From: Devosia chinhatensis
Lineage (GTDB): Bacteria > Pseudomonadota > Alphaproteobacteria > Rhizobiales > Devosiaceae
Reading direction: 5' to 3'
NCBI RefSeq assembly: GCF_000969445.1
Contig: NZ_JZEY01000054.1
Location: 930,001 to 994,000, forward strand
DNA length: 64,000 nt
The notes beneath the pieces are model-generated. The model searched no databases. It worked only from the letters and a program-made list of their open reading frames with translations, and was not told the origin of the DNA. A program made the position numbers and the translations under genes. Below are positions 39,904 to 54,157 of the stretch, one piece after another (position 1 is the first letter of the stretch; every line of letters starts with the position of its first letter).

Positions 39904-41679
39904 ATGAAATTCGGTACTCAGATAACGGGGCAGGGCGTTCGCTTCCGGCTCTGGGCCCCGGACCAGCAGCAGATCAGGGTGTACCTGCACGATCTCTCCG
40001 AGGCCTTTGAAATGGCTGCGCGGCCGAGAGGCTGGCACGAAGTTACCGTGCCGAATGCCAAACCCGGAATGCTCTACACTTTCGCGCTCCCGAATGGTCA
40101 ACACGTACCTGATCCGGCATCACGCTTTCTGCCGCAAGACGTTGAAGGGCCCAGCGAGATTATCGATCCTTTGGCCTTTGAGTGGAGTGATCGCGGCTGG
40201 GTGGGGCGCCCTTGGGAAGAGACAATCCTTTATGAATTGCACATCGGGACCTTCACTGAGGAAGGCACCTTTCGTGCGGCCATCGACAAGCTGGACCACC
40301 TCTGTGCGCTCGGGGTCAACACAATCGAGTTGATGCCAGTGGCGGACTTCAATGGCCGTTGGAATTGGGGCTATGATGGCGCCAGTCTCTTCGCTCCCGA
40401 CGCCACCTATGGTCGACCCGAAGATATGAAAGCCTTTGTGGACGCCGCTCACAGCAAGGGATTGAGCGTTGTCTTGGATGTTATCTACAACCACTTCGGT
40501 CCCAAGGGGAACCACCTGGGGACCTATGCGCCGTTGACCAACAGCGACGTGCCCACGCCTTGGGGAGAGGCCGTCAACTTCGACGGTGACGAAGCCGGGA
40601 TGATCCGGGACCTGATCATGGCCAATGCCCGCTATTGGCTGACGGAGTTTCATCTGGACGGCCTGCGGTTCGATGCGGTGCACGAAATTCATGACGACGG
40701 GCCAAGGCATATTCTGATGGAGCTCGCCGAACAGGCGCGCGCCGCCACCGATGGCCGTCATGTGCATTTGGTTCTGGAAAACTCGCTGAACCAGGTGAAC
40801 TGGCTCAAGCGCAGGGAAACCGGAGCGCCCTGGCTCTACGACGCGCAATGGAGCGACGACATTCACCACGCCATCCATGCCGTTCTGACCAATGATCCAG
40901 GCTCCTATTATGAGGACTTCATCGGTCGGATCGATCTGGTCGGACGGTCACTGGCGGAGGGCGTCGGTTGGCAAGGCGAATTCATGCAGCACCAAGGCCA
41001 CCACAAGGGTGAGCCCAGTGCATTTCTCCCGCCCACAGCTTTTGTCCATTTCATGCAGAATCACGACCAGGTCGGCAACAGGCCGTTCGGTCGCCGCGTC
41101 TCTCATCAGGTCTCGCGCGATGCGCTGCGCATGTGGAGCGCCATCGTGCTGCTGTCGCCGCAGATTCCCTTGCTGTTCATGGGCGAGGAATGGTCGGCAA
41201 GCACACCATTCCTGTTTTTCTCAGATGTCGGACAAGATCTTGCGGACGCGATCCGCACCAGCCGTCGAGAGGAACTGAAGAACTATCATGAAGCCGAGGA
41301 AGGTGAACTTCCCGACCCGATGAGCAAGGACAGCTTTTTGAGGTCCAAGCTGGATTGGAGCGAGACCGAACGAGGCGAGCATAGGGAAATGCTCGCACAT
41401 TACCGTGCGCTTATCTCATCGAGAACCAAGGCCATTGTGCCACGCCTGCATGGGATGCAGGGCTTTTCGGGACAGTACATGATCCTCGACAATCGCGGGA
41501 TTAAGGTGACGTGGCGTTTGGGAGACGGCTCCCGTTTGCAAATCCGCGCCAATCTCAGTGCTGAACTGCTTGCTTGTCCACCCAACGCGCTTGGGCAAAC
41601 TGTCTGGATAGAAGGTGAGGTTGCGGGTGACTCGCTCGGGCCTTGGGCGATGGACGCTCACATCATTCAAGCCGAATGA
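39904..41679 (+). CDS. treZ: Malto-oligosyltrehalose trehalohydrolase
   Basis: A 591-residue GH13 enzyme that releases trehalose from maltooligosyl-trehalose in the TreY-TreZ pathway, giving a stress protectant from glycogen. It has an N-terminal beta-sandwich (GVRFRLWAPDQQQIRVYLH), the barrel with YELHIGTFTEEGTF, LMPVADFNGRWNWGYDG and VLDVIYNHFGP, nucleophile D in GLRFDAVHEI, acid/base E in LVLENSLNQ and MQNHDQVGNR. ATG 39904 is chosen; ATG 39862 in the same frame is an alternative and the ribosome site is weak. TreY, which makes the substrate, is not in the window. Confidence 0.92.
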   Translation: MKFGTQITGQGVRFRLWAPDQQQIRVYLHDLSEAFEMAARPRGWHEVTVPNAKPGMLYTFALPNGQHVPDPASRFLPQDVEGPSEIIDPLAFEWSDRGWVGRPWEETILYELHIGTFTEEGTFRAAIDKLDHLCALGVNTIELMPVADFNGRWNWGYDGASLFAPDATYGRPEDMKAFVDAAHSKGLSVVLDVIYNHFGPKGNHLGTYAPLTNSDVPTPWGEAVNFDGDEAGMIRDLIMANARYWLTEFHLDGLRFDAVHEIHDDGPRHILMELAEQARAATDGRHVHLVLENSLNQVNWLKRRETGAPWLYDAQWSDDIHHAIHAVLTNDPGSYYEDFIGRIDLVGRSLAEGVGWQGEFMQHQGHHKGEPSAFLPPTAFVHFMQNHDQVGNRPFGRRVSHQVSRDALRMWSAIVLLSPQIPLLFMGEEWSASTPFLFFSDVGQDLADAIRTSRREELKNYHEAEEGELPDPMSKDSFLRSKLDWSETERGEHREMLAHYRALISSRTKAIVPRLHGMQGFSGQYMILDNRGIKVTWRLGDGSRLQIRANLSAELLACPPNALGQTVWIEGEVAGDSLGPWAMDAHIIQAE

Positions 41680-41702
41680 GGTAAAAATCAGCAGAAACCG
41701 CG

Positions 41703-42698
41703 TCAGCCGGCCCTCGGGCCGGTTGTGTTTCGAACCACGAGATTGGTGTTGAGGACATATCGGACATCCCGGATCGCATGATTTTCAAGGATGTCGATCA
41801 AGAGCGTCAACGCAGTTTTTCCGGCTTCGACCGAGCGATTGGAGACCGTGGTGAGCGATGGGTAAGTGGCGGCCCCTAAAACGTCATCGCACCCGACGAC
41901 CGAGAACTGACCTGGCACCGAAACCCCTTGATCGGCCAGTTCGGCAAGCATGCCCTGCGCTGTAAGATCGTCGAAGGCAATAGCAGCGCTTGCCCCGGTC
42001 GCCAGCACGCTGGCGGTAATTTTGCGACCGGACTCGAATGCTGCGAACTCGTTGGATATGACACTGACGTCAAGACCCAGGGCGCGAGCCGAACGCCGTA
42101 CGGCATTGCGACGCTGCTTGTTGGACCAGGAGCCATGCGGCCCGCCGACATAAACGAGCTTCTTGTGCCCCAATTCCGCGAGGTGCTCCACCGCTTCCGC
42201 GACCCCCGTAGCGCTGTCGATCAGAACTCTGGGTATGCCCTCCACATCCCGGTTCACCAGAACCACCGGCCGGCGGCTGGCATGTTCGACGATCTGCGCG
42301 TCGCTCATGCGCGACGATACCAGCACCAGGCCTTCGACCTGGCCACCGAAACGGCCGATAAGCTTGTCCTCTTGCTGCGGACTTTCATCGGAATTGCCCA
42401 GGAAAACGCAATAATCGGACCGATCCGCTTCCGCCTGCGCCGCGCGGATAAGAGGCGGGAAGAACGGGTTGGCAACGTCGGGTACGATGAGCGCGATATT
42501 GCCGTGCCGGCCGGTGCTGAGTGCGCGAGCCGTATGGTTGGGGACGTAACCAAGCTGCTCTGCGGCCGCAAAAATCTTGCGCACCGTTTCTTCGCTCAGC
42601 ATTTCCGGGCGTGTGAAGGCTCGAGACACACTGGACTTGGTAACGCCCGCAGCCTCGGCAACCTGGTTGATGGTGGGTCTGGCCCGTTTCGACGTCAT
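41703..42698 (-). CDS. LacI family transcriptional regulator of the amino-sugar operon
   Basis: A 331-residue repressor-type protein. Residues ~8-60 form the LacI helix-turn-helix and hinge helix (TINQVAEAAGVTKSSVSRAF, YVPNHTARALSTGRHGNIAL), and the rest is a periplasmic-binding-protein-like effector domain (IPRVLIDSATGVAEAVEHL, SVVGCDDVLGAATYPSLTTV). ATG 42698 starts directly before the HTH; 37 more open codons upstream overlap the operator. It is divergent from the nagB-like operon. Two identical palindromes (42767-42780 and around 46790-46803) are its likely operators. An internal hairpin (41707-41722) covers its last codons. Confidence 0.93.
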   Translation of the reverse strand: MTSKRARPTINQVAEAAGVTKSSVSRAFTRPEMLSEETVRKIFAAAEQLGYVPNHTARALSTGRHGNIALIVPDVANPFFPPLIRAAQAEADRSDYCVFLGNSDESPQQEDKLIGRFGGQVEGLVLVSSRMSDAQIVEHASRRPVVLVNRDVEGIPRVLIDSATGVAEAVEHLAELGHKKLVYVGGPHGSWSNKQRRNAVRRSARALGLDVSVISNEFAAFESGRKITASVLATGASAAIAFDDLTAQGMLAELADQGVSVPGQFSVVGCDDVLGAATYPSLTTVSNRSVEAGKTALTLLIDILENHAIRDVRYVLNTNLVVRNTTGPRAG

Positions 42699-42760
42699 TT
42701 CTATCCGTCTCTGGCTTCTCCCTTTTCTAATGCCACGACGCGCGAGCAAATCATAGCCGC

Positions 42761-42789
42761 TTGACGTGCAACCGGTTGCATCAGATACT
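42761..42789 (+). promoter_or_regulatory. Promoter with LacI-type operator upstream of the nagB-like operon
   Basis: TTGACG (42761-42766), 17-bp spacer, then GATACT (42784-42789) form a good sigma-70-like promoter. The spacer begins with TGCAACCGGTTGCA (42767-42780), a perfect 14-bp palindrome with the central CCGG and flanking TGCAA/TTGCA halves expected for LacI-family operators. Binding there would directly block RNA polymerase. The region lies between the divergent LacI gene and the operon. Confidence 0.75.
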
Positions 42790-42841
42790 TGCCACATTCG
42801 GGTTTGCACCCGGTGCCGACCCGAAAAACTGGAGGATATCC

Positions 42842-43624
42842 GTGTCGATTAAAGCTGCTTCGCCCGCACGTCCCGCTTTCGCCGCCGGGCAGATGGCCGT
42901 GCGCGTATTTCAGACCCGCGAGCAGATGGGGGCGGCGGCGGCCAACGACACTGCCGATGCCTTGCGAACGGCGCTGAGCTCGCAGGATCAAGTGCGTATG
43001 GTGTTCGCAGCCGCGCCCAGTCAGTCCGATGTTCTGGCGGCTCTATGCGTCGCGCCGGGCCTGGATTGGAGCCGTGTCGTCGCCTTCCATATGGATGAAT
43101 ATATTGGGCTCAATGCGAAGGCACCTGAACGCTTTGCCCACTGGCTGGATGAGCATCTCTTCCTGCGCTTGCCCTTTAAAGAGGTGCATCGAATCGTACC
43201 GGAGCCAGATGCAATAGCGGCGGCTTCGCGCTACGCAGCGCTTTTGTCGGAAGCACCCATTGATATCGTTTGCCTGGGTATCGGCGTAAATGGCCACATC
43301 GCATTTAATGACCCACCGGTCGCCGACTTTTCCGATCCGCTCGACGTGAAGGTGGTGACGCTGGACGATGCCTGTCGTCAGCAGCAGGTGGACGACGACT
43401 GCTTTGCCCGGTTCGAAGATGTGCCTGAACAGGCTATTACCTTGACCGTGCCTCGACTGTTGCGGGCAAATAAGCTCTTCTGCGTTGTGCCCGGTCGCCT
43501 CAAGCGCGACGCCGTGCGCGCTACGCTTCATGGGCCAATCAGCACCAGATGTCCGGCATCCATTTTGCGGGAACATGCGGACTGCACGCTTTATCTCGAC
43601 CAGGAGTCCAATCCAGATGCCTGA
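42842..43624 (+). CDS. nagB: Glucosamine-6-phosphate deaminase family protein (NagB-like)
   Basis: A 260-residue cytosolic enzyme of the NagB/6-phosphogluconolactonase fold, expected to convert glucosamine-6-phosphate (or a related amino-sugar phosphate) to fructose-6-phosphate and ammonia. Active-site blocks are FHMDEYIGLNAKAPERFA and LGIGVNGHIAFNDPP, where the DE and H residues are those of NagB. The start is GTG 42842, with GGAGG 6 bases before. It is the first gene of the nine-gene operon and overlaps the SIS gene by 8 bp. Its divergence from classical NagB leaves room for a different amino-sugar substrate. Confidence 0.88.
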   Translation: MSIKAASPARPAFAAGQMAVRVFQTREQMGAAAANDTADALRTALSSQDQVRMVFAAAPSQSDVLAALCVAPGLDWSRVVAFHMDEYIGLNAKAPERFAHWLDEHLFLRLPFKEVHRIVPEPDAIAAASRYAALLSEAPIDIVCLGIGVNGHIAFNDPPVADFSDPLDVKVVTLDDACRQQQVDDDCFARFEDVPEQAITLTVPRLLRANKLFCVVPGRLKRDAVRATLHGPISTRCPASILREHADCTLYLDQESNPDA

Positions 43625-44390
43625 GATCACTGATGCCGATGCGTTGTGCGCTGGCTACCTTTCCGACGTCACAGCACTGATGCAGTCCATTCTCGTCGAA
43701 GAGCGGGATGTGCTCGACCGTGCGGCTAGCCGCGTGGCCGATCAAGTTGCTGCCGATCGCCTCGTTCACGTCTATGGGCCTGGCGGTCATTCTAATCTTG
43801 CAGCGCAGGAAATCTTCTTCCGCGCTGGCGGTTTGATGCATGTCAGCGCCATTCTGGATGAAGGCACGCTTCTGTCCAACGGCGCTCTTCGCTCCATGGC
43901 TGTCGAGCGAACGCCTGGTTATGGCAAGATCGTCATCGACGACGAGCGGCTGGGCGAGGGCGACCTCCTGATCCTGACCAATGCCTATGGTATCAATGCA
44001 GCCCTGATCGACGCTGCACTCGCGGCACGTCAGCGGGGTGCATTCCTCATCGGGTTCAGCTCACATGGCCACGCAAACCAAAGTGCATCCAGCCATCCGG
44101 CGCGGCATCCGAGCAAGCAAAATCTGCACGATATCGTCGATATCGCCGTCGATACCAAGGTGCCGATTGGAGACGCGCTGGTCTCCGTGGAAGGTGTTGC
44201 CGAGAACATCGCTGCCGTGTCGACTTTTGCCAACGCCTTCGCGCTCAATTGCCTGGTGATCCGTACCGTGGCCAAGCTCGCTGAACGCGGTGTCGAGCCG
44301 CCGATCTGGCGCAGCGGCAACGCTCCGGGCGGCGATGAGGCCAACGGCAAGTTCCTTGCACGCTTCCGCGATCGCGTGCGCTGGCTATGA
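43617..44390 (+). CDS. SIS domain sugar isomerase-like protein (UPF0309 type)
   Basis: A 257-residue protein with a sugar-isomerase (SIS) phosphosugar-binding domain: VYGPGGHSNLAAQEIFFRAG early, ILTNAYGINAALIDAA in the middle. The C-terminal half has HPSKQNLHDIVDIAVDTKVP and VSVEG, as in the UPF0309 family. ATG 43617 is used because it overlaps the NagB-like stop by 8 bp. It could isomerise or bind the phosphorylated amino sugar handled by its neighbours. The next gene overlaps it by 4 bp. Confidence 0.85.
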   Translation: MPEITDADALCAGYLSDVTALMQSILVEERDVLDRAASRVADQVAADRLVHVYGPGGHSNLAAQEIFFRAGGLMHVSAILDEGTLLSNGALRSMAVERTPGYGKIVIDDERLGEGDLLILTNAYGINAALIDAALAARQRGAFLIGFSSHGHANQSASSHPARHPSKQNLHDIVDIAVDTKVPIGDALVSVEGVAENIAAVSTFANAFALNCLVIRTVAKLAERGVEPPIWRSGNAPGGDEANGKFLARFRDRVRWL

Positions 44391-45538
44391 CCCATTCGGG
44401 GCGGGTAATTGGCCGAGATCCAGCGAACGGCAAAGGGATCGCGGTCGAGTATCAGGATGGACATATCACTGCGGTTGAGCCGGTCAACGCGGGCCGGCAC
44501 GAACCCTTTCTGTCTGCGGGTTTCGTCGATCTGCAGGTCAACGGCTATGGCGGGCACGATCTGAATGCCGGCCCGCCCAGCCCGTCCACCCTGCAGCACC
44601 TGGCCCGTCTCCTCCTTGGTGCTGGCACAACAACCTTTGTGCCCACCTTGATTACGGCCAGCCGGGCGGATCTTTGCGGCGCCCTGCATGCCATAGCCAA
44701 AGCGCGGCAGGACAATTCTCGGCTCACAGCCATGATCCCGTTCATTCATGTGGAAGGGCCTTCCCTCGATCCTGCGGATGGGCCGAGGGGTGCGCATCCT
44801 CTGGAGTATGTCAGGCCGCCATCATTGGAAGAATTCGCAGCTTGGCAGGAGGCTGCGCAGGGCCTTGTGGGAATGGTGACACTCTCGCCGCACTACCCTG
44901 AGGCACCAGCCTACATTTCAGCGCTTGCGGCGCAAGGGATCCACGTTTCCATCGGCCATACCGGCGCCAGCCCGGAACAGATCTCCGCCGCCGTCGATGC
45001 CGGCGCCCGGCTCTCCACCCATCTCGGAAATGGCGCTGCCAGCACACTGCCACGTCACCCCAACTTCATGTGGTCGCAACTCGCCGACGACCGACTGACC
45101 GCCAGTTTCATTGCGGACGGACACCATCTGCCGCCAGCAGCGTTGAAGGCTATGTTGAGAGCCAAGACGCTCGAGCGCGCTATTTTAGTGTCGGACGCCG
45201 CTGCCTTGGGCGGACAAAGGCCCGGCATCTATCAAACTCCGATTGGTGGCGAGGTCGAGGTTTCGCCTGAAGGGCGGCTGAGCGTGGCCGGTACGCCCTA
45301 TCTGGCCGGAGCGGGCCATCTTCTCGATCGTAATGTTGCTCATGCTATCGAGGCCGGCGCGTTAACCCTTGCCGAGGCCCTCCGGCTGGCCACCCGAAAC
45401 CCCGGCATCTTTGCCGGAGATCGCGGCATCCTCGCGCCGGGTCGACGAGCAGACCTGGTGCGGTTCACTTGGAAATCGGGCGATTTTCGGTTGGCCATCG
45501 AAGATGTTTTCGTAGCCGGCGAAAGGGTCGCGCCATGA
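44387..45538 (+). CDS. nagA: N-acetylglucosamine-6-phosphate deacetylase (NagA-like)
   Basis: A 383-residue amidohydrolase-superfamily enzyme expected to deacetylate an N-acetylhexosamine-6-phosphate, giving the substrate of the NagB-like enzyme. Metal and active-site blocks are GFVDLQVNGYGG, HVEGPSLD (H121, E123), IGHTGAS (H191), THLGNGAA (H212; HLYNAM in classical NagA) and LVSDAAALGG (D270). The altered HLGN block hints at a variant substrate. ATG overlaps on both sides (ATGA at 44387 and 45535) place it firmly in the operon. It has no signal peptide and is therefore cytosolic. Confidence 0.9.
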   Translation: MTHSGRVIGRDPANGKGIAVEYQDGHITAVEPVNAGRHEPFLSAGFVDLQVNGYGGHDLNAGPPSPSTLQHLARLLLGAGTTTFVPTLITASRADLCGALHAIAKARQDNSRLTAMIPFIHVEGPSLDPADGPRGAHPLEYVRPPSLEEFAAWQEAAQGLVGMVTLSPHYPEAPAYISALAAQGIHVSIGHTGASPEQISAAVDAGARLSTHLGNGAASTLPRHPNFMWSQLADDRLTASFIADGHHLPPAALKAMLRAKTLERAILVSDAAALGGQRPGIYQTPIGGEVEVSPEGRLSVAGTPYLAGAGHLLDRNVAHAIEAGALTLAEALRLATRNPGIFAGDRGILAPGRRADLVRFTWKSGDFRLAIEDVFVAGERVAP

Positions 45539-46806
45539 TCATGGCCGGCGTCGCTTCCGTTGACATTACCCCGCCTGCCGGACTTTCCCTGGCCGGGTTC
45601 GCTGCCCGCACCCAGTCCGCGCAAGGTGTGCATGATGCGCTCACGGCCCGCGCAATCGTCGTCGAGGATACGGCGATCGTCGTGCTTGATGTCATTGGGT
45701 TGCACGAGGATATGGCGGCGCGCATTCGCAAACGCAGCGGCCTCGACGAAAACCGCATCATTGTCGCCGCTACCCATACGCATGGCGCACCTGTTTCCAT
45801 GCAGGGTCGGCTAGGTCGGGACGCTGATCCTGGCTTTCTTCAGCAGATGGAGGATGGTGCTGTGAAGGCGATCCGGCGTGCCTGGGAGGGGCGTCGGCCC
45901 GCCTCGCTTTCCGCCGGCATGGGCAGTGATCCCGGTGTGGCCTGGAACAGGCGCCACGCCGATGGACCACTTGACCATGCAGTGCCCGTCATTCGCATCC
46001 GCGACGCCGAAGGCTCCTGCTTTGCGGTCATGACATCCTATGCCTGCCACCCCGTCGTGCTAGCCGCCGACAATCTCCTGATGACTGCCGACTATCCGTA
46101 TTATGTCCGACGCTGTTTGGAAGAGGCTTATCCCGGTGCAGTCGCTTTGTTTCTGACCGGCTGCGCCGGCGATGCCAATACCGGCCACACGGCGCAGGCC
46201 TCCTGGACGCTGGCGGCCAATGCGCAGCGTACCTTTGCTACTGCGGAGCGCCTCGGCGTGCGGATTGCAGAGGCGGCGCTCGTTGCCCCCGAGGGCGACT
46301 TCGCTGGCCCCGTGGACGCAGGACATCGGGACCTTGATCTGGAAATGCTTCGCCTTGAGACGGAGTCGCTCAGCCAGCTCGCAGAACAATGGCGCCTGGA
46401 GGCGGCATCTGCCGAGCTGGTGCGCGCAACCTTGTTGGGTCACTGGATCGAATGGGCCGAGCGTTTCGAAGCCGTCGTGCCCGGCTCGTGGCGGGGCAGG
46501 GTAAGTCTTCTAGACTGGTGCGGTATTCCAATTGTCGCCATGCCAGGGGAAATCTTCAGCGAAACCGGGCTCTTTGTCAGGGCGTGCTGCAATGGCCTGC
46601 CGGCTTTTGTGCTTGCTTATGCAGAGGGCAATCCCGGCTACATTCCCCCGAGCAGCGAATATCAGTTTGGTGGCTACGAGGTCACCGAGGCGCATCGCTT
46701 TATCGGCATGCCCGGCGCCTTTGCGCCCGGTTCGGCAGAGGCTCTGGCCGAGGCTGCCTGTGGCCTGATCAAACAACGCCACTTGACAGCGCAACCGGTT
46801 GCATAA
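45535..46806 (+). CDS. Neutral/alkaline ceramidase-family amidase (cytosolic)
   Basis: A 423-residue protein with the N-terminal domain of neutral/alkaline non-lysosomal ceramidases, zinc enzymes that cleave an amide between a fatty acid and an amino alcohol. Visible blocks are AGVASVDITPPAGLSLAGF, AATHTHGAP (H81, H83), SYACHPVVL (H172), LTGCAGDANTG, MPGEIFSETG (E339) and GYIPPSSEY, all in family positions, so the zinc site appears intact. Unlike secreted ceramidases it lacks a signal peptide and the C-terminal domain. The operon context suggests it hydrolyses an N-acyl amino sugar or a related amide inside the cell. Its last five codons form part of an operator. Confidence 0.87.
   Translation: MIMAGVASVDITPPAGLSLAGFAARTQSAQGVHDALTARAIVVEDTAIVVLDVIGLHEDMAARIRKRSGLDENRIIVAATHTHGAPVSMQGRLGRDADPGFLQQMEDGAVKAIRRAWEGRRPASLSAGMGSDPGVAWNRRHADGPLDHAVPVIRIRDAEGSCFAVMTSYACHPVVLAADNLLMTADYPYYVRRCLEEAYPGAVALFLTGCAGDANTGHTAQASWTLAANAQRTFATAERLGVRIAEAALVAPEGDFAGPVDAGHRDLDLEMLRLETESLSQLAEQWRLEAASAELVRATLLGHWIEWAERFEAVVPGSWRGRVSLLDWCGIPIVAMPGEIFSETGLFVRACCNGLPAFVLAYAEGNPGYIPPSSEYQFGGYEVTEAHRFIGMPGAFAPGSAEALAEAACGLIKQRHLTAQPVA
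46783..46803 (+). promoter_or_regulatory. Second LacI-type operator with -35 box, inside the end of the ceramidase-like gene
   Basis: TTGACA (46783-46788) is followed two bases later by GCAACCGGTTGC (46791-46802), the same 12-bp palindrome as at 42768-42779 and at nearly the same spacing from a -35 box. The -10 region (around 46804-46811) is weak. The site overlaps the final codons of the preceding gene and lies 53 bp before the binding-protein start. It is most likely an internal, LacI-controlled promoter for the transport genes. Confidence 0.7.
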
Positions 46807-46855
46807 CAAACTTGCGCATCGCCTGTAGGGAACGAGCGAAACAAGGGGAATGAAC

Positions 46856-48160
46856 ATGAATAGCGTATTTGAGCCAAGTCGCGGCGCACGTCTGAAGACC
46901 CTCAGGGTAGCCCTTTTGGGTGGTGCTGCGCTCGCCATGGCGGGCGCAGCGTCTGCCCAGGAAATCCGAGTATGGAGCGGCTATCCGGAACTGGCCCCGT
47001 TCTACGAGCATGTCGCGGAAGGGATGAAGGCCGAGTATCCCGATCTCAGCGTGCGCGTCGAAGCGATCGCGCTGCGCGAGCACGAAAAGCGTCTGGCACT
47101 GGGCCTCACCTCCGGCGAAGCTGCCGAAGTGATCGAGCTCGGCACCTCGACCGCCACCCGCTACCTGGAGAACGAGCTGTTCAACGTCGCGCCCGATGAT
47201 GTGGCAGCGTTCGTGCAGGATCCGGCCAATTTCAACGACTTCTTCCGCGATTCTGCCAGTTACGAGGGAACGGTCTATGGCTTGCCGCTCTTCCGCGGAC
47301 AAAGCGCCCTCTATTACAACACGGAAATGTTCGAGGCCGCCGGGCTGACAGAGCCGCCTGCCGACATGGCCGACTATACCAGCTATGCCGAGCAATTGAC
47401 CCAGCGCGACGCCGCCGGTGCCCCGACGGTTTCCGGGTGGAGCCTGCGTCTGTCCGGTGGCGGCCAGGGTATTGCCGAAAAATTCTGGATCAACATGTTC
47501 CAGTACGGCGAAAATCTCGTCGAGCAGAATGAGGCGGGCCTCTGGAGAGCCGACTTCGCCAACGAGCAGGGCCGGGCAGCGCTCAAGCAATACCTTGAGA
47601 ACGTCCACACGCTCAAAACCGTGACGGTCGAAATGCCTGCCGACGCCGAGGCTTTCGAGCGCGAACAGACGGCCATGTTTATCCGTGAATCCTGGGTCAT
47701 TGGAGATATCGCCGCCAAGGCTCCGGACCTCTCCTACGCCACCGCAACTCTGCCGCGGGGCTCCATCGTGGCCCCTGTGTCGCTCTGGATCAGCGGCGAA
47801 GGCGAGAAGGCCGATGCGGCGTGGGCCTTTGCGCAGGCTGCCAATGATCCTGAAAACCTGCTCTGGCTCCTGGACAATGTGGGCTGGCTGCCGAACCGGT
47901 CCGGTCTCGACTACAGCGCCATCCTCGAAGCCAAGCCGGCATTGGCCGCCTTCGTCGATTATCCGGACACCTACGAGTTCTTCTCGTTGCCCAATATTGG
48001 CCCGGTCGAGGAAATCCTGACGCGCACGGCTGCACGTTTGACGGAAGCCTTTGCAAATCCCGCCCTTGCGGCCGACGACGCAGCCATCGATGCCGTTCTT
48101 GTCGGCATGCAGGACGAAATCAACGGCCTGCTGCAGCGTGAAGGTCTGCTGGCCGAATAA
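46856..48160 (+). CDS. Extracellular solute-binding protein of amino-sugar ABC transporter
   Basis: A 434-residue periplasmic binding protein of family 1. The signal peptide has a basic start (RGARLKTLRVALLGG) and ends near GAASAQ; the mature part begins EIRVWSGYPELAPFYEHVAE. ATG 46856 is preferred over ATG 46850, because GGGGA touches the first and is properly spaced from the second. It has its own candidate promoter/operator upstream and a strong hairpin after the stop. The context suggests an N-acylated amino sugar or a glycoside of one as the ligand. Confidence 0.92.
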   Translation: MNSVFEPSRGARLKTLRVALLGGAALAMAGAASAQEIRVWSGYPELAPFYEHVAEGMKAEYPDLSVRVEAIALREHEKRLALGLTSGEAAEVIELGTSTATRYLENELFNVAPDDVAAFVQDPANFNDFFRDSASYEGTVYGLPLFRGQSALYYNTEMFEAAGLTEPPADMADYTSYAEQLTQRDAAGAPTVSGWSLRLSGGGQGIAEKFWINMFQYGENLVEQNEAGLWRADFANEQGRAALKQYLENVHTLKTVTVEMPADAEAFEREQTAMFIRESWVIGDIAAKAPDLSYATATLPRGSIVAPVSLWISGEGEKADAAWAFAQAANDPENLLWLLDNVGWLPNRSGLDYSAILEAKPALAAFVDYPDTYEFFSLPNIGPVEEILTRTAARLTEAFANPALAADDAAIDAVLVGMQDEINGLLQREGLLAE

Positions 48161-48184
48161 GCTGGCATCAAGCCCGGGTACAAC

Positions 48185-48214
48185 GATCCGGGAAGGTTAT
48201 GATCTTCCCGGATC
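48185..48214 (+). terminator. Stem-loop between binding-protein and permease genes
   Basis: A perfect 11-bp inverted repeat (GATCCGGGAAG / CTTCCCGGATC) with an 8-base loop, 25 bases after the binding-protein stop and 19 before the permease start. There is no U-tract. Like the other hairpins after binding-protein genes here, it probably protects the upstream mRNA or lets only part of the transcripts through. Confidence 0.6.
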
Positions 48215-48232
48215 CCACTAGCGGAGAATACA

Positions 48233-49120
48233 ATGCTGCGGCGCAAGAGATGGCTCTTTGCCATGCTCGCCATCCTGCCCACGCTGGCGATCTTCGCCTG
48301 GCTGCGCATGTTTCCAATCGTCGAAACATTGCGTCTCAGCCTGCACAAATGGGACATACTTTCGAAGAACAAGCCCTTTATCGGCCTGGCTAATTTCCAG
48401 GAACTGATGGGTGATCGCCTGTTCCACGAGGCCCTGCTCAACACGACGATTATCGCGTTCGGCGTCCTCGCCATTACCATCCCGACGGCCATGGTTCTCG
48501 CCGCGCTCATTCACTACCGAACGCGCTCGCGGGCCTCGGGCTTTTACGAGACGGCGATCTTTTTGCCGCATGTGGTGTCGCTGGTGCCGGCCGCCATGGC
48601 GTGGAAGTGGATCTTCGATGCCCGGCTCGGGCCGCTCAACGCCCTTCTGAGCTTTTTCGGCATCCAACCTCAGGCCTGGCTCTTCGATCCCACCTTGTCG
48701 ATCATCAGCGTCATCGTGCTGTGTTCGTGGCAGGCACTTGGCTATGCCGTTCTTATTTATCTCGTCGGATTCAAAAGCCTGCCTGTTTCGCTCTATGAGG
48801 CTGCAAAACTGGATGGCGCATCGGGTACTCAATCGTTCTGGTTCCTGTCCATCCCGATGCTGAAGCCGATCACGCTCTACGTGTCGGTGGTCACGCTCGT
48901 GTCTGGCTTTAATGTCTACGCTCAAGCTTTTGTCCTGGCTTCCGATGCGCAGGGCGCGCCGGGCCGTCAGGTGCGGGTGCTTGTGCTCGACATGCTCGAA
49001 AACAGCTTCCGCAATTATCGGGTAGGCTATGCGGCCTCCGAAGCCGTGGTGCTGTTGCTGATCGTTCTTGTGCTGACACTCATCCAGTTCTCCCTGCTGC
49101 GCGAAAGGGGTCGGGCATGA
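48233..49120 (+). CDS. Sugar ABC transporter permease (MalF/UgpA type)
   Basis: A 295-residue inner-membrane permease with six or so hydrophobic segments. The EAA loop is SLYEAAKLDGASGTQSFWF. GCGGAG lies 7 bases before ATG 48233. It overlaps the next permease by 4 bp (ATGA). It forms the transport channel with the product of 49117-49980 and uses the ATPase encoded at 51219-52304. Confidence 0.93.
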   Translation: MLRRKRWLFAMLAILPTLAIFAWLRMFPIVETLRLSLHKWDILSKNKPFIGLANFQELMGDRLFHEALLNTTIIAFGVLAITIPTAMVLAALIHYRTRSRASGFYETAIFLPHVVSLVPAAMAWKWIFDARLGPLNALLSFFGIQPQAWLFDPTLSIISVIVLCSWQALGYAVLIYLVGFKSLPVSLYEAAKLDGASGTQSFWFLSIPMLKPITLYVSVVTLVSGFNVYAQAFVLASDAQGAPGRQVRVLVLDMLENSFRNYRVGYAASEAVVLLLIVLVLTLIQFSLLRERGRA

Positions 49121-49980
49121 CACGCAACGTTTCGCAAAGCGGCAAGAGCCGCAAGATGCGGCGCATGATCGTCGACCGCGGCATTGACGTGGTGCTGATG
49201 ACGTTCAGCCTCCTGATGCTGCTGCCTCTGGTCTTTCTCGTGTCCAACGGGTTTAAGACACCGCAGGAAATGCTGGCCTGGCCTCCCACGATCATTCCTG
49301 CAAATCCCACGGTCGACAATTTTGCGGCCGTTCTTCAGGACACCCCGCTCCTGCGCTGGATTCTCAACAGCATCCTGTTCGCGGTACTTTCAACGCTGGC
49401 CATCCTGGCGACGTCATCGATCGCCGGATATATCCTTGCCAAGTTCCGCTATCGCTCGCTGAACGTCGTGTTCGCCCTGATCCTTGCTACGGCCATCGTG
49501 CCGTTCGAGGTTTACATGATCCCCCTCTACTTTCAGGCGCAAAGCCTGGGTATCCTCAATAGCCTCTGGGGGCTATTGCTGGGCTATCTGGTCATGAGCT
49601 TCGGCATCTTCTTGATCCGGCAGAACGTCATTCATTCCATTCCCGATGAGCTGATCGAGGCGGCCCGCATCGATGGCGCGGGTGAGCTCTGGATTTTCTT
49701 CCGCATCGTCCTGCCGCTTCTTCGGGGCGCACTGGGTGCGCTGGGTGTTCTGGCATTCTTCCAGGCTTGGACGGCCTTTGCCTGGCCTATGATCGTCGCC
49801 ACGAACCGCGAAGCGTACACGATCGAAGTAGGCCTGGCGCTGTTCCAGACCGGCTTCACGGTCGATCTTGGAAGGCTCAGTGCGGCTTCAGCACTTGTGC
49901 TGATCCCCTCAATCACCCTTTTCGTCATCCTGCGGCGTAATTTCGTGCAGGGCGTCGCCAGCACAGGTCTCAAGGAATGA
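49117..49980 (+). CDS. Carbohydrate ABC transporter permease (MalG type)
   Basis: A 287-residue inner-membrane permease, the second half of the channel. After a short basic cytoplasmic start (SGKSRKMRRMIVDRG) come several hydrophobic segments, and the EAA loop is ELIEAARIDGAGELWIFFRI. Start and stop both overlap neighbours by 4 bp, so translation of permease, permease and AGE-family gene is coupled. Confidence 0.93.
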   Translation: MTRNVSQSGKSRKMRRMIVDRGIDVVLMTFSLLMLLPLVFLVSNGFKTPQEMLAWPPTIIPANPTVDNFAAVLQDTPLLRWILNSILFAVLSTLAILATSSIAGYILAKFRYRSLNVVFALILATAIVPFEVYMIPLYFQAQSLGILNSLWGLLLGYLVMSFGIFLIRQNVIHSIPDELIEAARIDGAGELWIFFRIVLPLLRGALGALGVLAFFQAWTAFAWPMIVATNREAYTIEVGLALFQTGFTVDLGRLSAASALVLIPSITLFVILRRNFVQGVASTGLKE

Positions 49981-51218
49981 GCGACAATTCCTTCATCGCC
50001 GATGCTGGCAAGCTGTACGGTCGGGCCAATGCTGCCAGTCTGCACTGGCTGCTGGACCGAGGCAGGCTGGGCGAAGGTTTCCTCAACAGCAAGCAGAACA
50101 GCATCACGCTCGCCGATTACACGCCAGCGGATGGCTTACGCGGACCCAACTACACCTATGGTTGGATACAGGGCAGAGGCCTTGAAGCCCTTGTGACCCA
50201 TGCCGCCTTCTTTGCCGATACCGATCCAGATCTGGCACGTCGCCTCGACGAAGCAGGTAGGGCGTTGTTCGGTGTGCTGCGCAGATTGTGGGCGCGAGAC
50301 GGGCACGGCTACTTCTGCTACGACGCAGATCTTCGGCCGGTGATTGCGTCGGGCGAAGGCGTTACCCTCCAAGCAGCTCCGGGTGACATTTACACCTATA
50401 GCGATATCTTCTTCCTCAAGGGACTGATCGCGGCGGCGGCGCGCTACGATGCCCAGCGCCTCCCGGCCTACCTCGCTCAGATCGAGCATCTGGTCGCTGC
50501 CATCGAGGGCAAGCGATTCCAGATGGATGAGCGGCGGCTGCTATCGGCCGATAGCGTGGCAGCCGAACCCGACGACATCGGGCCGCGCATGATCATGATC
50601 GGCGCCGCCGGCTTGTTGCACCGCATCGGCAAACCCGAGGCGGCGGGCTTTGCCGATCGACTTGTCTCGCATGTTCTCGACAGACATTTCGATCCCGCAT
50701 CCAGGCTTTTGCGCAACGTGCCCGGCGGGGATGAGTGCAATGTCGGGCACGGGATAGAGCTTGTCGGTTTCGCCTTCGATTATCTCCCGCCCGATGCGCC
50801 TGCAGCACTGGTCGAGCAATTACAGGCTGTTTTGATCGCCTCTTTCAATGCAGGGTTCACAGGTCCCGGCATCAGGCTGACTGTTTCGACGGCCACGCGC
50901 GAACCGTTGAGCCCCTATTGCCCCTGGTGGTCCTTGCCCGAGACCATCCGTGCGGCGGCGCTCTGCTACGAGCGCACGGGCGACGAGCGTGTGCTCGATG
51001 TGTGGCGCAAGGCGCATCAGGCTTTCTTCGGCACGTTCTGGCGCGACAAGCCGCCACTGGCCTACCAGACCATGACCGAGGACGGCCCCGTCGATTACGT
51101 CCCCGCAACGCCCGATCTCGATCCGGGCTATCACACCGGCCTCAGCCTGCTGGCGGCCATCAACGTGGCCCAGCGTCTCGACGCAGGCCGGTTTCTGCTT
51201 TCGAAAACAGGTGCTTGA
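49977..51218 (+). CDS. AGE-family (N-acylglucosamine 2-epimerase-like) protein
   Basis: A 413-residue cytosolic protein that looks like an (alpha/alpha)6-barrel of the N-acylglucosamine 2-epimerase/cellobiose epimerase family: GHGIELVGFAFDYLPP and PWWSLPETIRAAALCYERTG match the family's active-site helices, followed by DVWRKAHQAFFGTFW. It could epimerise or isomerise the imported sugar. A distant unsaturated-glycosidase relationship (same fold) cannot be excluded. It is inserted between the second permease (4-bp overlap) and the ATPase (adjoining codons), so it is coupled to the transporter. Confidence 0.75.
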   Translation: MSDNSFIADAGKLYGRANAASLHWLLDRGRLGEGFLNSKQNSITLADYTPADGLRGPNYTYGWIQGRGLEALVTHAAFFADTDPDLARRLDEAGRALFGVLRRLWARDGHGYFCYDADLRPVIASGEGVTLQAAPGDIYTYSDIFFLKGLIAAAARYDAQRLPAYLAQIEHLVAAIEGKRFQMDERRLLSADSVAAEPDDIGPRMIMIGAAGLLHRIGKPEAAGFADRLVSHVLDRHFDPASRLLRNVPGGDECNVGHGIELVGFAFDYLPPDAPAALVEQLQAVLIASFNAGFTGPGIRLTVSTATREPLSPYCPWWSLPETIRAAALCYERTGDERVLDVWRKAHQAFFGTFWRDKPPLAYQTMTEDGPVDYVPATPDLDPGYHTGLSLLAAINVAQRLDAGRFLLSKTGA

Positions 51219-52304
51219 ATGGCTGCTGTAGATATCCGCAATGTGGCCAAGTCCTTCGGGCCTACAGACATCATCCGCGACGTCAACATCGAGGTTCCCG
51301 ACGGCGCCTTCGTGGTGCTCGTGGGGCCTTCGGGATGCGGGAAGTCGACGCTGCTGCGCATGATCGCCGGGCTGGAAGACATTGATCGGGGCGAGATTTC
51401 CATCGGAGATCGGGTCATCAACGACGTGGAACCCAAGCACCGCGACATTGCCATGGTGTTCCAGAATTATGCGCTCTATCCGCATATGACCATCGCGGAG
51501 AACATGGGTTTTTCGCTGCGTCTGGCCCGCCAGCCCAAGGCGGAGATCGACCAGCGGGTTGCCGAAGCCGCTCGGATCCTGGGCCTCAGCGACTATCTGC
51601 ACCGCTTTCCCAAGCAGCTCTCGGGCGGCCAGCGGCAGCGCGTGGCCATGGGGCGCGCCATCGTTCGCCAGCCGCAGGTCTTTCTGTTCGACGAGCCTTT
51701 GTCCAACCTCGATGCCAAGCTGCGGGTGCAGATGCGGGCAGAGCTCAAGGACATGCATGCCCGGTTCAAGACGACGACCATCTATGTGACGCATGATCAG
51801 ATCGAGGCCATGACCATGGCGGATCTGATCGTGGTGATGCGCGGCGGGGTGGTGGAACAGATTGGAACACCGCTCGATCTCTATGATTTTCCTGCAAATA
51901 TGTTCGTCGGCAGCTTCATCGGTTCACCCGCCATGAACTTCCTCGAAGGCACGATCAGGGTGGCGGGGGACGCGGTGTTTCTCGAGACAGAGAGCGGCAC
52001 GAAGCTACCGGTCGGCCGGGGCAATGCCGTCTTCGATGGCCGCGCCGTAACGCTGGGAATTCGCCCGGAACATCTGACACTTGCAGCCGGAGAAGGCGGG
52101 CTCGAGGGCGTTATCGCCAGTATCGAGCCGACCGGATCGGAGACGTTCGTTGTGGTTCAGCTGGGGCAGGATCGGGTGTCGGTGCTGCTGCGCCAGAGGC
52201 TGATGGCGGGCCCAGGTGACGCCATCCGGCTGGCGGTCGAAGCCGGGTCGGCGCATCTCTTCGACACGGCGACGGGCGTGCGGCTGGACGCGGCCAAGGC
52301 GTGA
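51219..52304 (+). CDS. Sugar ABC transporter ATP-binding protein (UgpC/MalK type)
   Basis: A 361-residue ATPase: Walker [14 protein letters not shown]-loop [12 protein letters not shown], signature QLSGGQRQRVAMGRAI, Walker B VFLFDEPLSNLDAKLR, H-loop YVTHDQIEAMTM, then a C-terminal TOBE-type regulatory domain (VTLGIRPEHLTL). It begins immediately after the AGE-gene stop codon and closes the amino-sugar operon. MalK-type ATPases can serve more than one transporter, so it may also energise others. Confidence 0.95.
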   Translation: MAAVDIRNVAKSFGPTDIIRDVNIEVPDGAFVVLVGPSGCGKSTLLRMIAGLEDIDRGEISIGDRVINDVEPKHRDIAMVFQNYALYPHMTIAENMGFSLRLARQPKAEIDQRVAEAARILGLSDYLHRFPKQLSGGQRQRVAMGRAIVRQPQVFLFDEPLSNLDAKLRVQMRAELKDMHARFKTTTIYVTHDQIEAMTMADLIVVMRGGVVEQIGTPLDLYDFPANMFVGSFIGSPAMNFLEGTIRVAGDAVFLETESGTKLPVGRGNAVFDGRAVTLGIRPEHLTLAAGEGGLEGVIASIEPTGSETFVVVQLGQDRVSVLLRQRLMAGPGDAIRLAVEAGSAHLFDTATGVRLDAAKA

Positions 52305-52350
52305 CTTTCGGCTAGCATCTCGACCCCTGGCGCTAGCAGACTGTTAGCGT

Positions 52351-53076
52351 TCAGGGTGCGAAAGCCTTCATAAAGCGATCCCGCGAGCGTTCGATGTGAA
52401 TACGCATGGACTGGCGGGCCGCGTCGGCATCGCGCGCCTGCATCGCCGCGATGATCGCCCGATGTTCCGAGATGGCGTCGCTGGTGACCCGGGCGTGGTA
52501 GAACAGGCGGAAGAGATGCACATGGGTGTGCAGGCTCGCCAGTGTCTCCTGGATGAGTTCATTGCCGCCGGCATGGGCGATGAGATCGTGGAACTGCCCG
52601 TCAAGCTGCGCGAACCGGCCGTAAGCCTCTGCGACGGGTTCATCACCGCCAGCCTCCATTTCCGCGGCCAGTTTGGAGAGGGTGGCGCGCGCGTCATCCG
52701 TCATGGTGAGCGCGGCGCGGGCAGCGGCGTGCGGCTCGAGCAGCAGGCGCAGTTCGTAGAGCTGTTCAAGGCGGGAGCTGTCCATCTGGTTGGCGGCGCT
52801 GTAGCCAATGAGATGGGTCTTGACCACCAGCCCCTCCGCTTCCAGTCGCGACAGGGCTTCGCGGATCGGGGTCTGCGACACGCCGAGTTCGCGCACCAGC
52901 CGGTCAACCGAGATGCGGCCGCCAGGGGCGATTTCGCGCGACATCAGCTGGGCATAGATAGCGTTGTAGACTTCCTCGCCCAGGCGCGTCGGGCGCTTGA
53001 GGGGCAGTGAATGTCCGGGTCGCTTCTCGCCGAAGACCATCGGGTCCCAATCCATGTTGTCTATTGACGTGTCCAT
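52351..53076 (-). CDS. GntR family transcriptional regulator (FadR/FCD type)
   Basis: A 241-residue regulator: N-terminal winged helix (RISVDRLVRELGVSQTPIRE, SRLEAEGLVV) and an all-helical FCD effector domain with likely metal-binding histidines (QFHDLIAHAGG, SEHRAIIAAM). Starts at 53076, 53055 and 53040 are all possible; none has a strong ribosome site. It is divergent from the dehydrogenase cluster at 53132, and a 12-bp palindrome lies between the two genes. Proteins of this type usually repress sugar-acid or organic-acid catabolism. Confidence 0.9.
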   Translation of the reverse strand: MDTSIDNMDWDPMVFGEKRPGHSLPLKRPTRLGEEVYNAIYAQLMSREIAPGGRISVDRLVRELGVSQTPIREALSRLEAEGLVVKTHLIGYSAANQMDSSRLEQLYELRLLLEPHAAARAALTMTDDARATLSKLAAEMEAGGDEPVAEAYGRFAQLDGQFHDLIAHAGGNELIQETLASLHTHVHLFRLFYHARVTSDAISEHRAIIAAMQARDADAARQSMRIHIERSRDRFMKAFAP

Positions 53077-53111
53077 TCGATAGCACCATAGTCCGGCTCG
53101 TTCAATCATAT

Positions 53112-53123
53112 ATCCGATCGGAT
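53112..53123. promoter_or_regulatory. Candidate GntR operator
   Basis: ATCCGATCGGAT is a perfect 12-bp palindrome in the short gap between the GntR gene and the Ldh-type dehydrogenase, 8 bp before the latter's start codon. Flanking TATA-rich sequence (TCATATATCC, TTTTATATC) suggests promoter elements on both sides. FadR-type GntR sites are typically palindromes of this size. Confidence 0.55.
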
Positions 53124-53131
53124 TTTATATC

Positions 53132-54157
53132 GTGCCGATTGTTGCCGAAAGTGAAGCCCGCCAGACTGCCGAACGAGCGCTCGTTCGGGCGGGCGTGCCT
53201 GCGGAAAACGCAAGGCTACAAGTCGACCTCTGGCTGGACGCTGACCTGCGAGGCGTACCGTCCCATGGGCTGTTGCGGCTGGACCGGCTTGCCGAACGCC
53301 TGGCAGCGGGCCTCATAGATCCGAAGGCGACCGGCACACAGGAATGGCGCGGCAGCAGCTACCTCTTGGTCGATGGCGAAAACGGGCTGGGGCCGGTGGT
53401 CGCCAATGCGGCACTGGACGCGGTGACGGCGCGGGCACGCGAGACAGGCATTGCACTGGCAGCGATCAGAAATTCGCAGCATCTGGGGATGCTGGCCTGG
53501 TATACCGAGCGCATCGCTCGAGACGGGCAGGCGGCCATTGTGCTGTCCACCAGCGAGGCGCTGGTCCATCCCTGGGGCGGACGCCATGCCATGCTGGGCA
53601 CCAATCCCATTTCGATAGCAGTGCCGACCGGCGAGGCGGATCCCTTCGTCATGGATACCGCGACCAGCCGGGTGTCGATGGGCGAGATCCACGACTATGC
53701 CAATCGTGGCGAAGCCATCCCGCCCGATTGGGCGCTCGACGCCCGGGGCGATCCGACAACGGACCCGCAGGCCGCCAAGGCGGGCGCTATCGCCCCGTTC
53801 GGCGATGCCAAGGGCTATGCACTGGGACTGGCCTTCGAACTGCTCGTCAGCGCCTTGTCCGGCGCGGCACTGGGAACGGATGTGCATGGGACGCTGGACG
53901 CCGTCCATCCCTGCAACAAGGGCGATGTGTTCATTGTCATCGATGGTCCGAAGACCGCAGGCTTGTCGGCCTATCTGGAGCTGATCCGCGCAGCCGTGCC
54001 CGCATCGGGGTTCGATCGTGTGCTTGTGCCGGGCGAGCGCGGCAGGGCCAAGAGGGCCGAGCGCATGGCGAGCGGCGTCCCGATCGCCGACGCGGTCTGG
54101 CAGCGCATTCAGCACCTGGCGCAAGGCGCGCCGACTGCCGAACAGGTGACGTCATGA
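53132..54157 (+). CDS. Ldh family (malate/L-lactate dehydrogenase-type) oxidoreductase
   Basis: A 341-residue NAD(P)-dependent oxidoreductase of the MDH2/YlbC/DlgD family, whose members act on 2-oxo acids, ureidoglycolate or 2,3-diketogulonate. Blocks seen are DLRGVPSHGLLRLD, RNSQHLGMLAWYTERIA, MLGTNPISIAVPTG, VMDTATSRVSMGEI and GYALGLAFELLVSALSGA. The start is GTG 53132, directly after a palindrome and without a good ribosome site, so the site may double as control of translation or the transcript may be nearly leaderless. It overlaps the next gene by 4 bp. Confidence 0.9.
   Translation: MPIVAESEARQTAERALVRAGVPAENARLQVDLWLDADLRGVPSHGLLRLDRLAERLAAGLIDPKATGTQEWRGSSYLLVDGENGLGPVVANAALDAVTARARETGIALAAIRNSQHLGMLAWYTERIARDGQAAIVLSTSEALVHPWGGRHAMLGTNPISIAVPTGEADPFVMDTATSRVSMGEIHDYANRGEAIPPDWALDARGDPTTDPQAAKAGAIAPFGDAKGYALGLAFELLVSALSGAALGTDVHGTLDAVHPCNKGDVFIVIDGPKTAGLSAYLELIRAAVPASGFDRVLVPGERGRAKRAERMASGVPIADAVWQRIQHLAQGAPTAEQVTS

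Follow-up and report, generated by a model that had tools for sequence, protein, structure and literature searches.

A stretch of 64,000 nucleotides from Devosia chinhatensis (contig NZ_JZEY01000054.1, positions 930,001 to 994,000 of the forward strand; hereafter "the window") contains a gene cluster with a LacI-family regulator, catabolic proteins related to NagA and NagB, and an ATP-binding cassette (ABC) transporter, and in this cluster an exact 12-mer, GCAACCGGTTGC, occurs twice. These two 12-mers are very probably operators of the adjacent LacI-family protein, placed in the spacers of two sigma-70-type promoters, one catabolic and one for transport. An original prediction made from the letters of the window had proposed such an operator in both promoters, with the second copy embedded in coding sequence, and the comparative data support it. 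Judged by these comparisons, the operator pair has strong support and is of an ordinary kind, with dual coding as a well-documented twist.

The first 12-mer occupies positions 42768-42779, inside the perfect 14-bp palindrome of operator 1, and the second coincides with operator 2 (Table 1); the locations, the palindromic extension, and the close spacing to a TTGAC(G/A) hexamer are all as predicted. One nucleotide separates TTGACG from the first 12-mer, and two separate TTGACA from the second. The likeness between the sites is wider than the 12-mer, with 88% identity over 25 nt between 42768-42792 and 46791-46815. Both sites are CG-centred palindromes of even length, close to the regulator and its predicted target. 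This form had been put forward as typical of the family, and a LacI-family survey does give it as the norm, for 1173 of 1303 regulators (PMC4052901). The second 12-mer lies within the closing codons of the frame 45535-46806, which reads TTG ACA GCG CAA CCG GTT GCA TAA (LTAQPVA*), and its bases do encode the AQPVA tail of the ceramidase-like protein, as had been claimed.

The 12-mer is associated with the presence of the regulator. Among 75 genomes sampled from the genus, 21 (including that of D. chinhatensis) contain a LacI orthologue at 49% identity or above, with the next best match at 37% or less. At least two exact copies are found in 20 of these 21 genomes versus 1 of the 54 without the orthologue (Fisher p = 5e-16, from hand-entered counts and with kinship ignored), and a hand tally gives 44 copies in the first group and 13 in the second. 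The only exception among the 21, G061, has a genome that is 62% complete, with lacI beginning at a contig end. Copy placement was inspected in 20 stretches, of which 18 surround copies of the 12-mer (the G051 copy is not among them); the second copy precedes the solute-binding protein gene (sbp) in 15 of the 21 genomes. At the family level, the orthologue is present in 33 of 136 genomes (E at most 1e-80). The copies adjoin lacI even in four loci, L047-L050, where sbp and ceramidase-like genes were not found, and within about 1.5 kb no AACCGGTT occurs at nine loci of distant LacI relatives (at most 37% identity). In 12 aligned orthologues, residues S22, V24, S25, R26, A27, and F28 of the recognition helix and A59-R64 of the hinge are invariant, in keeping with a fixed operator; the assignment of DNA-contacting residues follows the LacI and PurR structures, in which a hinge leucine enters the central CG step.

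The placement of the sites was followed in loci pooled from the genus, the family, and the best 80 of 441 named relatives, most of them Hyphomicrobiales, which gave 114 loci and 92 once identical lacI DNA was dropped. Two second-site contigs without lacI (L053 and L054) are included in the stop-codon and promoter counts, and L054 also in an alignment of 11 genomes. Within 300 nt upstream of lacI, the exact 12-mer is present in 79 of the 92 loci and a form with one mismatch in nine more (L050, L095, L151, L158, L159, L161, L162, L163, and L165). A contig end cuts this region in L091 and L101, and in L105 the 12-mer is found about 1.1 kb from lacI, beyond an insertion and directly before nagB; in only one of the 92 loci, L174, is it absent upstream of lacI. 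Of 82 loci with sbp, 79 also carry the exact 12-mer before this gene. The sbp genes of L094 flank lacI on its opposite side, and L151, together with 14 Bradyrhizobium-group loci (one bearing the title Frankia sp.), has sbp placed in tandem after lacI. In all of these the site is still before sbp, and because it keeps with sbp when gene order differs, the second site, on comparative grounds, belongs to the transporter promoter.

Around the sites, the anatomy of a sigma-70-type promoter is conserved. Of the 79 site-1 copies, 75 have TTGAC one or two nucleotides ahead of the 12-mer, as do 80 of the 81 site-2 copies, and a -10 hexamer follows at a spacing of 16-18 nt. Its A2 and T6 are found in 69 and 72, respectively, of the 79 site-1 copies, and both are present in all 81 site-2 copies. 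In most copies the spacer, which the operator fills, is 17 nt long; the second site of the window has 18 nt. Since this second promoter combines the 18-nt spacer with a weak -10, its strength is uncertain. For lacI itself, no conserved promoter emerged from the site-1 profile: no column between -40 and -9 passed the 0.6-bit cut, and for this reason autoregulation is unproven. The distance between the two sites varies from 4020 to 4198 bp in 62 loci, with no fixed value, and the 331-aa regulator does not have the extra length of the tetrameric LacI (360 aa), so fixed-phase looping between them is not supported. That extra length is linked to the formation of tetramers.

Several observations count against this account. 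The relatives are non-independent samples. In five of the 21 orthologue genomes (G012, G013, G058, G062, and G070), the second copy is located elsewhere than before sbp, and three of the 82 sbp loci are without the exact site (none in L051 and L153, one mismatch in L174). The 13 copies in the 54 genomes without the orthologue are spread over 12 genomes, one holding two, a frequency similar to that of a reversed control (16 copies in all in the 75 genomes); the 12-mer therefore arises by chance too. At the second promoter, the -10 hexamer CAAACT matches TATAAT in only three of six positions. A consensus scan reports the first promoter and not the second, and its yield is close to chance (2 found; mean of 1.1 in shuffles).

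Could the repeat be fortuitous altogether? The motif shows no enrichment once mismatches are allowed: with up to two, the window has 8 sites, which is unremarkable (shuffle mean 4.79, with 10 of 100 shuffles reaching 8), and with up to one, the genome has 7 sites versus 12 for the reversed control, hence no wider excess. However, a motif common throughout the genome had been named beforehand as evidence against the operators, and the 3,497,719-base genome contains exactly two copies, both in this cluster, with none for the reversed control. The 12-mer also recurs at the same two promoters across relatives. Genome uniqueness, association within the genus, and promoter conservation together lead us to reject chance, whose probability is next to nil. 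A less remote but still very unlikely alternative is that the sites are true operators of some regulator other than the adjacent LacI protein. The genome does encode 19 other LacI-type matches, but the copies track the presence of this protein's orthologue, they stay beside lacI where the transport and ceramidase-like genes were not found, they are missing near the nine distant LacI relatives, and the listed residues of recognition helix and hinge do not vary among the 12 aligned orthologues.

It could also be argued that the second 12-mer is conserved for the C-terminal LTAQPVA of the ceramidase-like protein and not for DNA binding. This question was approached through the position of the ceramidase stop, found by walking the frame to its first stop codon, in the 66 loci where the ceramidase-like gene and sbp form a co-linear pair; the site is present in 65 of these and absent from one (L153). 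In 10 of the 65 loci the frame runs on through the operator to a TAA after it, reading LT[A/T/P]QPVA*, and the near identity of these tails agrees with selection on the peptide. But in 51 of the 65 this DNA is not part of the gene, whose stop codon ends at least 24 positions ahead of the first base of the 12-mer, and site 1 carries the same sequence outside the annotated cluster genes. In the remaining four (L034, L042, L170, and L175), the stop is the TGA of TTGAC itself. Apparent overlaps in L125, L131, L132, and L155 were rejected, as the alignments ran beyond a stop codon. When the ceramidase genes of 11 genomes, D. chinhatensis included, are aligned, the longest invariant run is the 17-nt operator block CGCAACCGGTTGCATAA, followed by the 6 nt of TTGACA, with all others at 5 nt or less. 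Third codon positions are invariant at 7 of 7 sites in the operator block versus 23 of 415 in the remaining gene, and none of the 409 other seven-codon windows equals the block. In L034 and L042, a one-base gap before the -35 makes the frame end earlier, and the operator DNA is unchanged. Because the 17 nt are invariant in all 11 genomes, including the two that are frame-shifted, the comparison indicates that selection acts on the promoter-operator DNA and that the peptide tail follows from it. Selection on the tail itself is extremely unlikely, and it is rejected in view of the two shifted frames, the 51 sites outside the gene, and the fixed third positions.

A quick tree of the LacI proteins groups nine of the ten overlaps in a single Devosia clade of 12 rows, with a Shimodaira-Hasegawa-like approximate likelihood ratio test (SH-aLRT) value of 100; L034 and L042 belong to this clade as well. 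The remaining overlap, L149, is paired with the non-overlapping L086 (99), a placement suggesting that the overlap arose a second time. At least six changes among the three stop states are required on this tree, which does not itself tell their direction. The upstream stop is likely to be ancestral, as it is widely spread, and with 51 loci stopping upstream, four in the -35, and ten across the operator, the overlap is probably derived, the ceramidase-like frame apparently having been extended, in particular lineages, into a promoter that was there before. An 18-nt spacer is found in all ten overlapping sites, in two of the four with the stop in the -35, and in three of the 51 with an upstream stop. 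The embedding of the second site in coding sequence thus stands as predicted for this genome, and its setting is refined: the site goes with the transporter promoter, and the overlap looks lineage-specific, with two close relatives lacking the tail.

Table 1. Promoter elements and genes of the cluster, with positions in the window.
Feature	Position	Strand	Basis or remark
LacI-family regulator, 331 aa	41703..42698	-	Divergent from catabolic genes; PF00356 (46.8 bits) and PF13377 (97 bits), both above cut-off
-35 hexamer TTGACG, catabolic promoter	42761..42766	+	Sequence; TTGAC in site-1 relatives; consensus scan
Operator 1 TGCAACCGGTTGCA, in promoter spacer	42767..42780	.	Conserved upstream of lacI/nagB
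-10 hexamer GATACT, 17-nt spacer	42784..42789	+	Site-1 profile and consensus scan; start predicted near 42796
NagB-like protein (glucosamine-6-phosphate deaminase family), GTG start	42842..43624	+	PF01182; under NCBIfam equivalog cut-off
SIS-domain sugar isomerase-like protein	43617..44390	+	NF002805 above cut-off; PF13580
NagA-like protein (N-acetylglucosamine-6-phosphate deacetylase family)	44387..45538	+	PF01979; TIGR00221 at 173.5 bits, under cut-off
Ceramidase-like protein (PF04734)	45535..46806	+	Last codons contain -35 and operator of second promoter
-35 hexamer TTGACA, transport promoter, within coding frame	46783..46788	+	Invariant in 11 genomes
Operator 2 GCAACCGGTTGC, shared with AQPVA-tail codons	46791..46802	.	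Sequence and conservation
Weak -10 hexamer CAAACT, 18-nt spacer	46807..46812	+	A2 and T6 invariant in 81 relatives; start predicted near 46819
ABC transporter solute-binding protein (sbp)	46850..48160	+	PF13416, PF01547
Remaining transport unit: two ABC permeases, epimerase-like protein (49977-51218), UgpC/MalK-type ATPase	48233..52304	+	

A model of regulation can be proposed from these features. The adjacent LacI-family protein would bind both 12-mers, and since the operator sits in the spacer between the -35 and the -10, a bound dimer would exclude RNA polymerase. Promoter 1 is predicted to serve nagB, sis, nagA, and the ceramidase-like gene, and promoter 2 the ABC transporter genes. The inducer that releases the repressor is probably an amino sugar or the phosphate of one. 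Promoter 2 itself is probably an ancient element of the intergenic region, through whose -35 and operator the ceramidase-like frame later ran in one Devosia clade. The frame would then end on the TAA just past the operator, with tail codons fixed by the operator because the frame runs through it, and with the tail as a by-product.

Compared with known systems, the cluster resembles the local sugar regulons of the LacI family, which likewise have a helix-turn-helix (HTH) domain with a periplasmic-binding-like sensor, a divergent catabolic operon, and an even CG-centred palindrome in the promoter. It is unlike them in that, in one clade, operator 2 coincides with part of a coding sequence, whereas the survey places less than 1% of sites in coding regions (PMC4052901). 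The N-acetylglucosamine regulon of NagR, another LacI-family protein, shares a LacI-type gene beside nagA- and nagB-like genes. The NagR regulon, however, is reported to belong to gammaproteobacteria and to have a phosphotransferase system transporter at its core (PMC5343134); the present one has an ABC transporter and is alphaproteobacterial. The NagQ regulon has the same pathway core, nagA and nagB, but a regulator of the GntR family; the same source gives tandem repeats as NagQ sites and alpha- and betaproteobacteria, with some gammaproteobacteria, as its range (PMC5343134). The present regulon was not found in a literature search, with RegPrecise outside its scope. A text search for the 12-mer returned one paper only, on a trypanosome protein, and a search on binding sites in coding sequence gave nothing recognised as relevant.

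The cluster provides a well-conserved candidate regulon for the uptake and breakdown of amino sugars in Devosia and in relatives such as Rhizobium, Neorhizobium, Microvirga, Nitratireductor, and Bradyrhizobium. On balance, we lean toward a broader reading: an undescribed LacI-family amino-sugar regulon, found in several Hyphomicrobiales lineages, with an almost frozen 12-bp operator, in which a neighbouring gene has, in probably two lineages, extended into the promoter and has its C-terminus dictated by the operator (LT-x-QPVA*), and the TTGAC of the -35 supplies the stop codon in four sampled loci, from three lineages of the LacI tree. If true, it would be a natural experiment on how regulatory DNA shapes the ends of proteins. 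The overlap is a clear case of an operator under selection fixing codons in the gene upstream, and frame differences that occur naturally separate the function of the DNA from that of the peptide.

Further occurrences of the motif are seen at some loci. In three genus genomes without sbp and the ceramidase-like gene in their cluster, L047 (position 11719), L048 (15248), and L049 (14915), a second exact 12-mer (AACCGGTT in the lacI-minus orientation) lies 6.7-9.4 kb from the first, and these copies may be further targets. An extra 12-mer in genome G054 (L057, 4255-4266) is found directly before a match to a distant nagB relative (38%), with no adjoining TTGAC, and is another possible target. 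In the Nitratireductor loci L124, L125, L126, and L129, a near-copy, GCAACCGGTTGA, precedes site 1 by 15 bp; the LacI-family survey mentions overlapping tandem sites at about 13 bp (PMC4052901). L175, titled uncultured Granulosicoccus, contains the entire cluster and both sites, with its ceramidase-like gene ending on the TGA of TTGAC, and its cluster may possibly have been acquired by horizontal transfer.

Among the proteins of the cluster, the regulator combines a LacI HTH (PF00356) with a sugar-binding-protein-like domain (PF13377), as expected for a LacI-family transcription factor. NagA and NagB are used here as family-level names, since both proteins score under the NCBIfam equivalog cut-offs. 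The ceramidase-like protein is a regular member of the cluster, as its 66 co-linear pairs with sbp indicate. Because its similarity to the neutral ceramidases in the PDB is weak (31 bits), our guess is that it may act on an N-acyl amino sugar. The epimerase-like protein scores below the Pfam cut-off and is encoded, in this cluster and many related ones, between the permease gene and that of the ATPase. For sbp, ATG 46856 suits the AAGGGGA ribosome site better than ATG 46850 and is the more plausible start. Rfam at the gathering threshold gave no match over 41000-53500. The sbp leader at 46826-46848 (TAGGGAACGAGCGA..ACAAGGGG) is well conserved in the 11 genomes, seemingly beyond the needs of the ribosome site alone.

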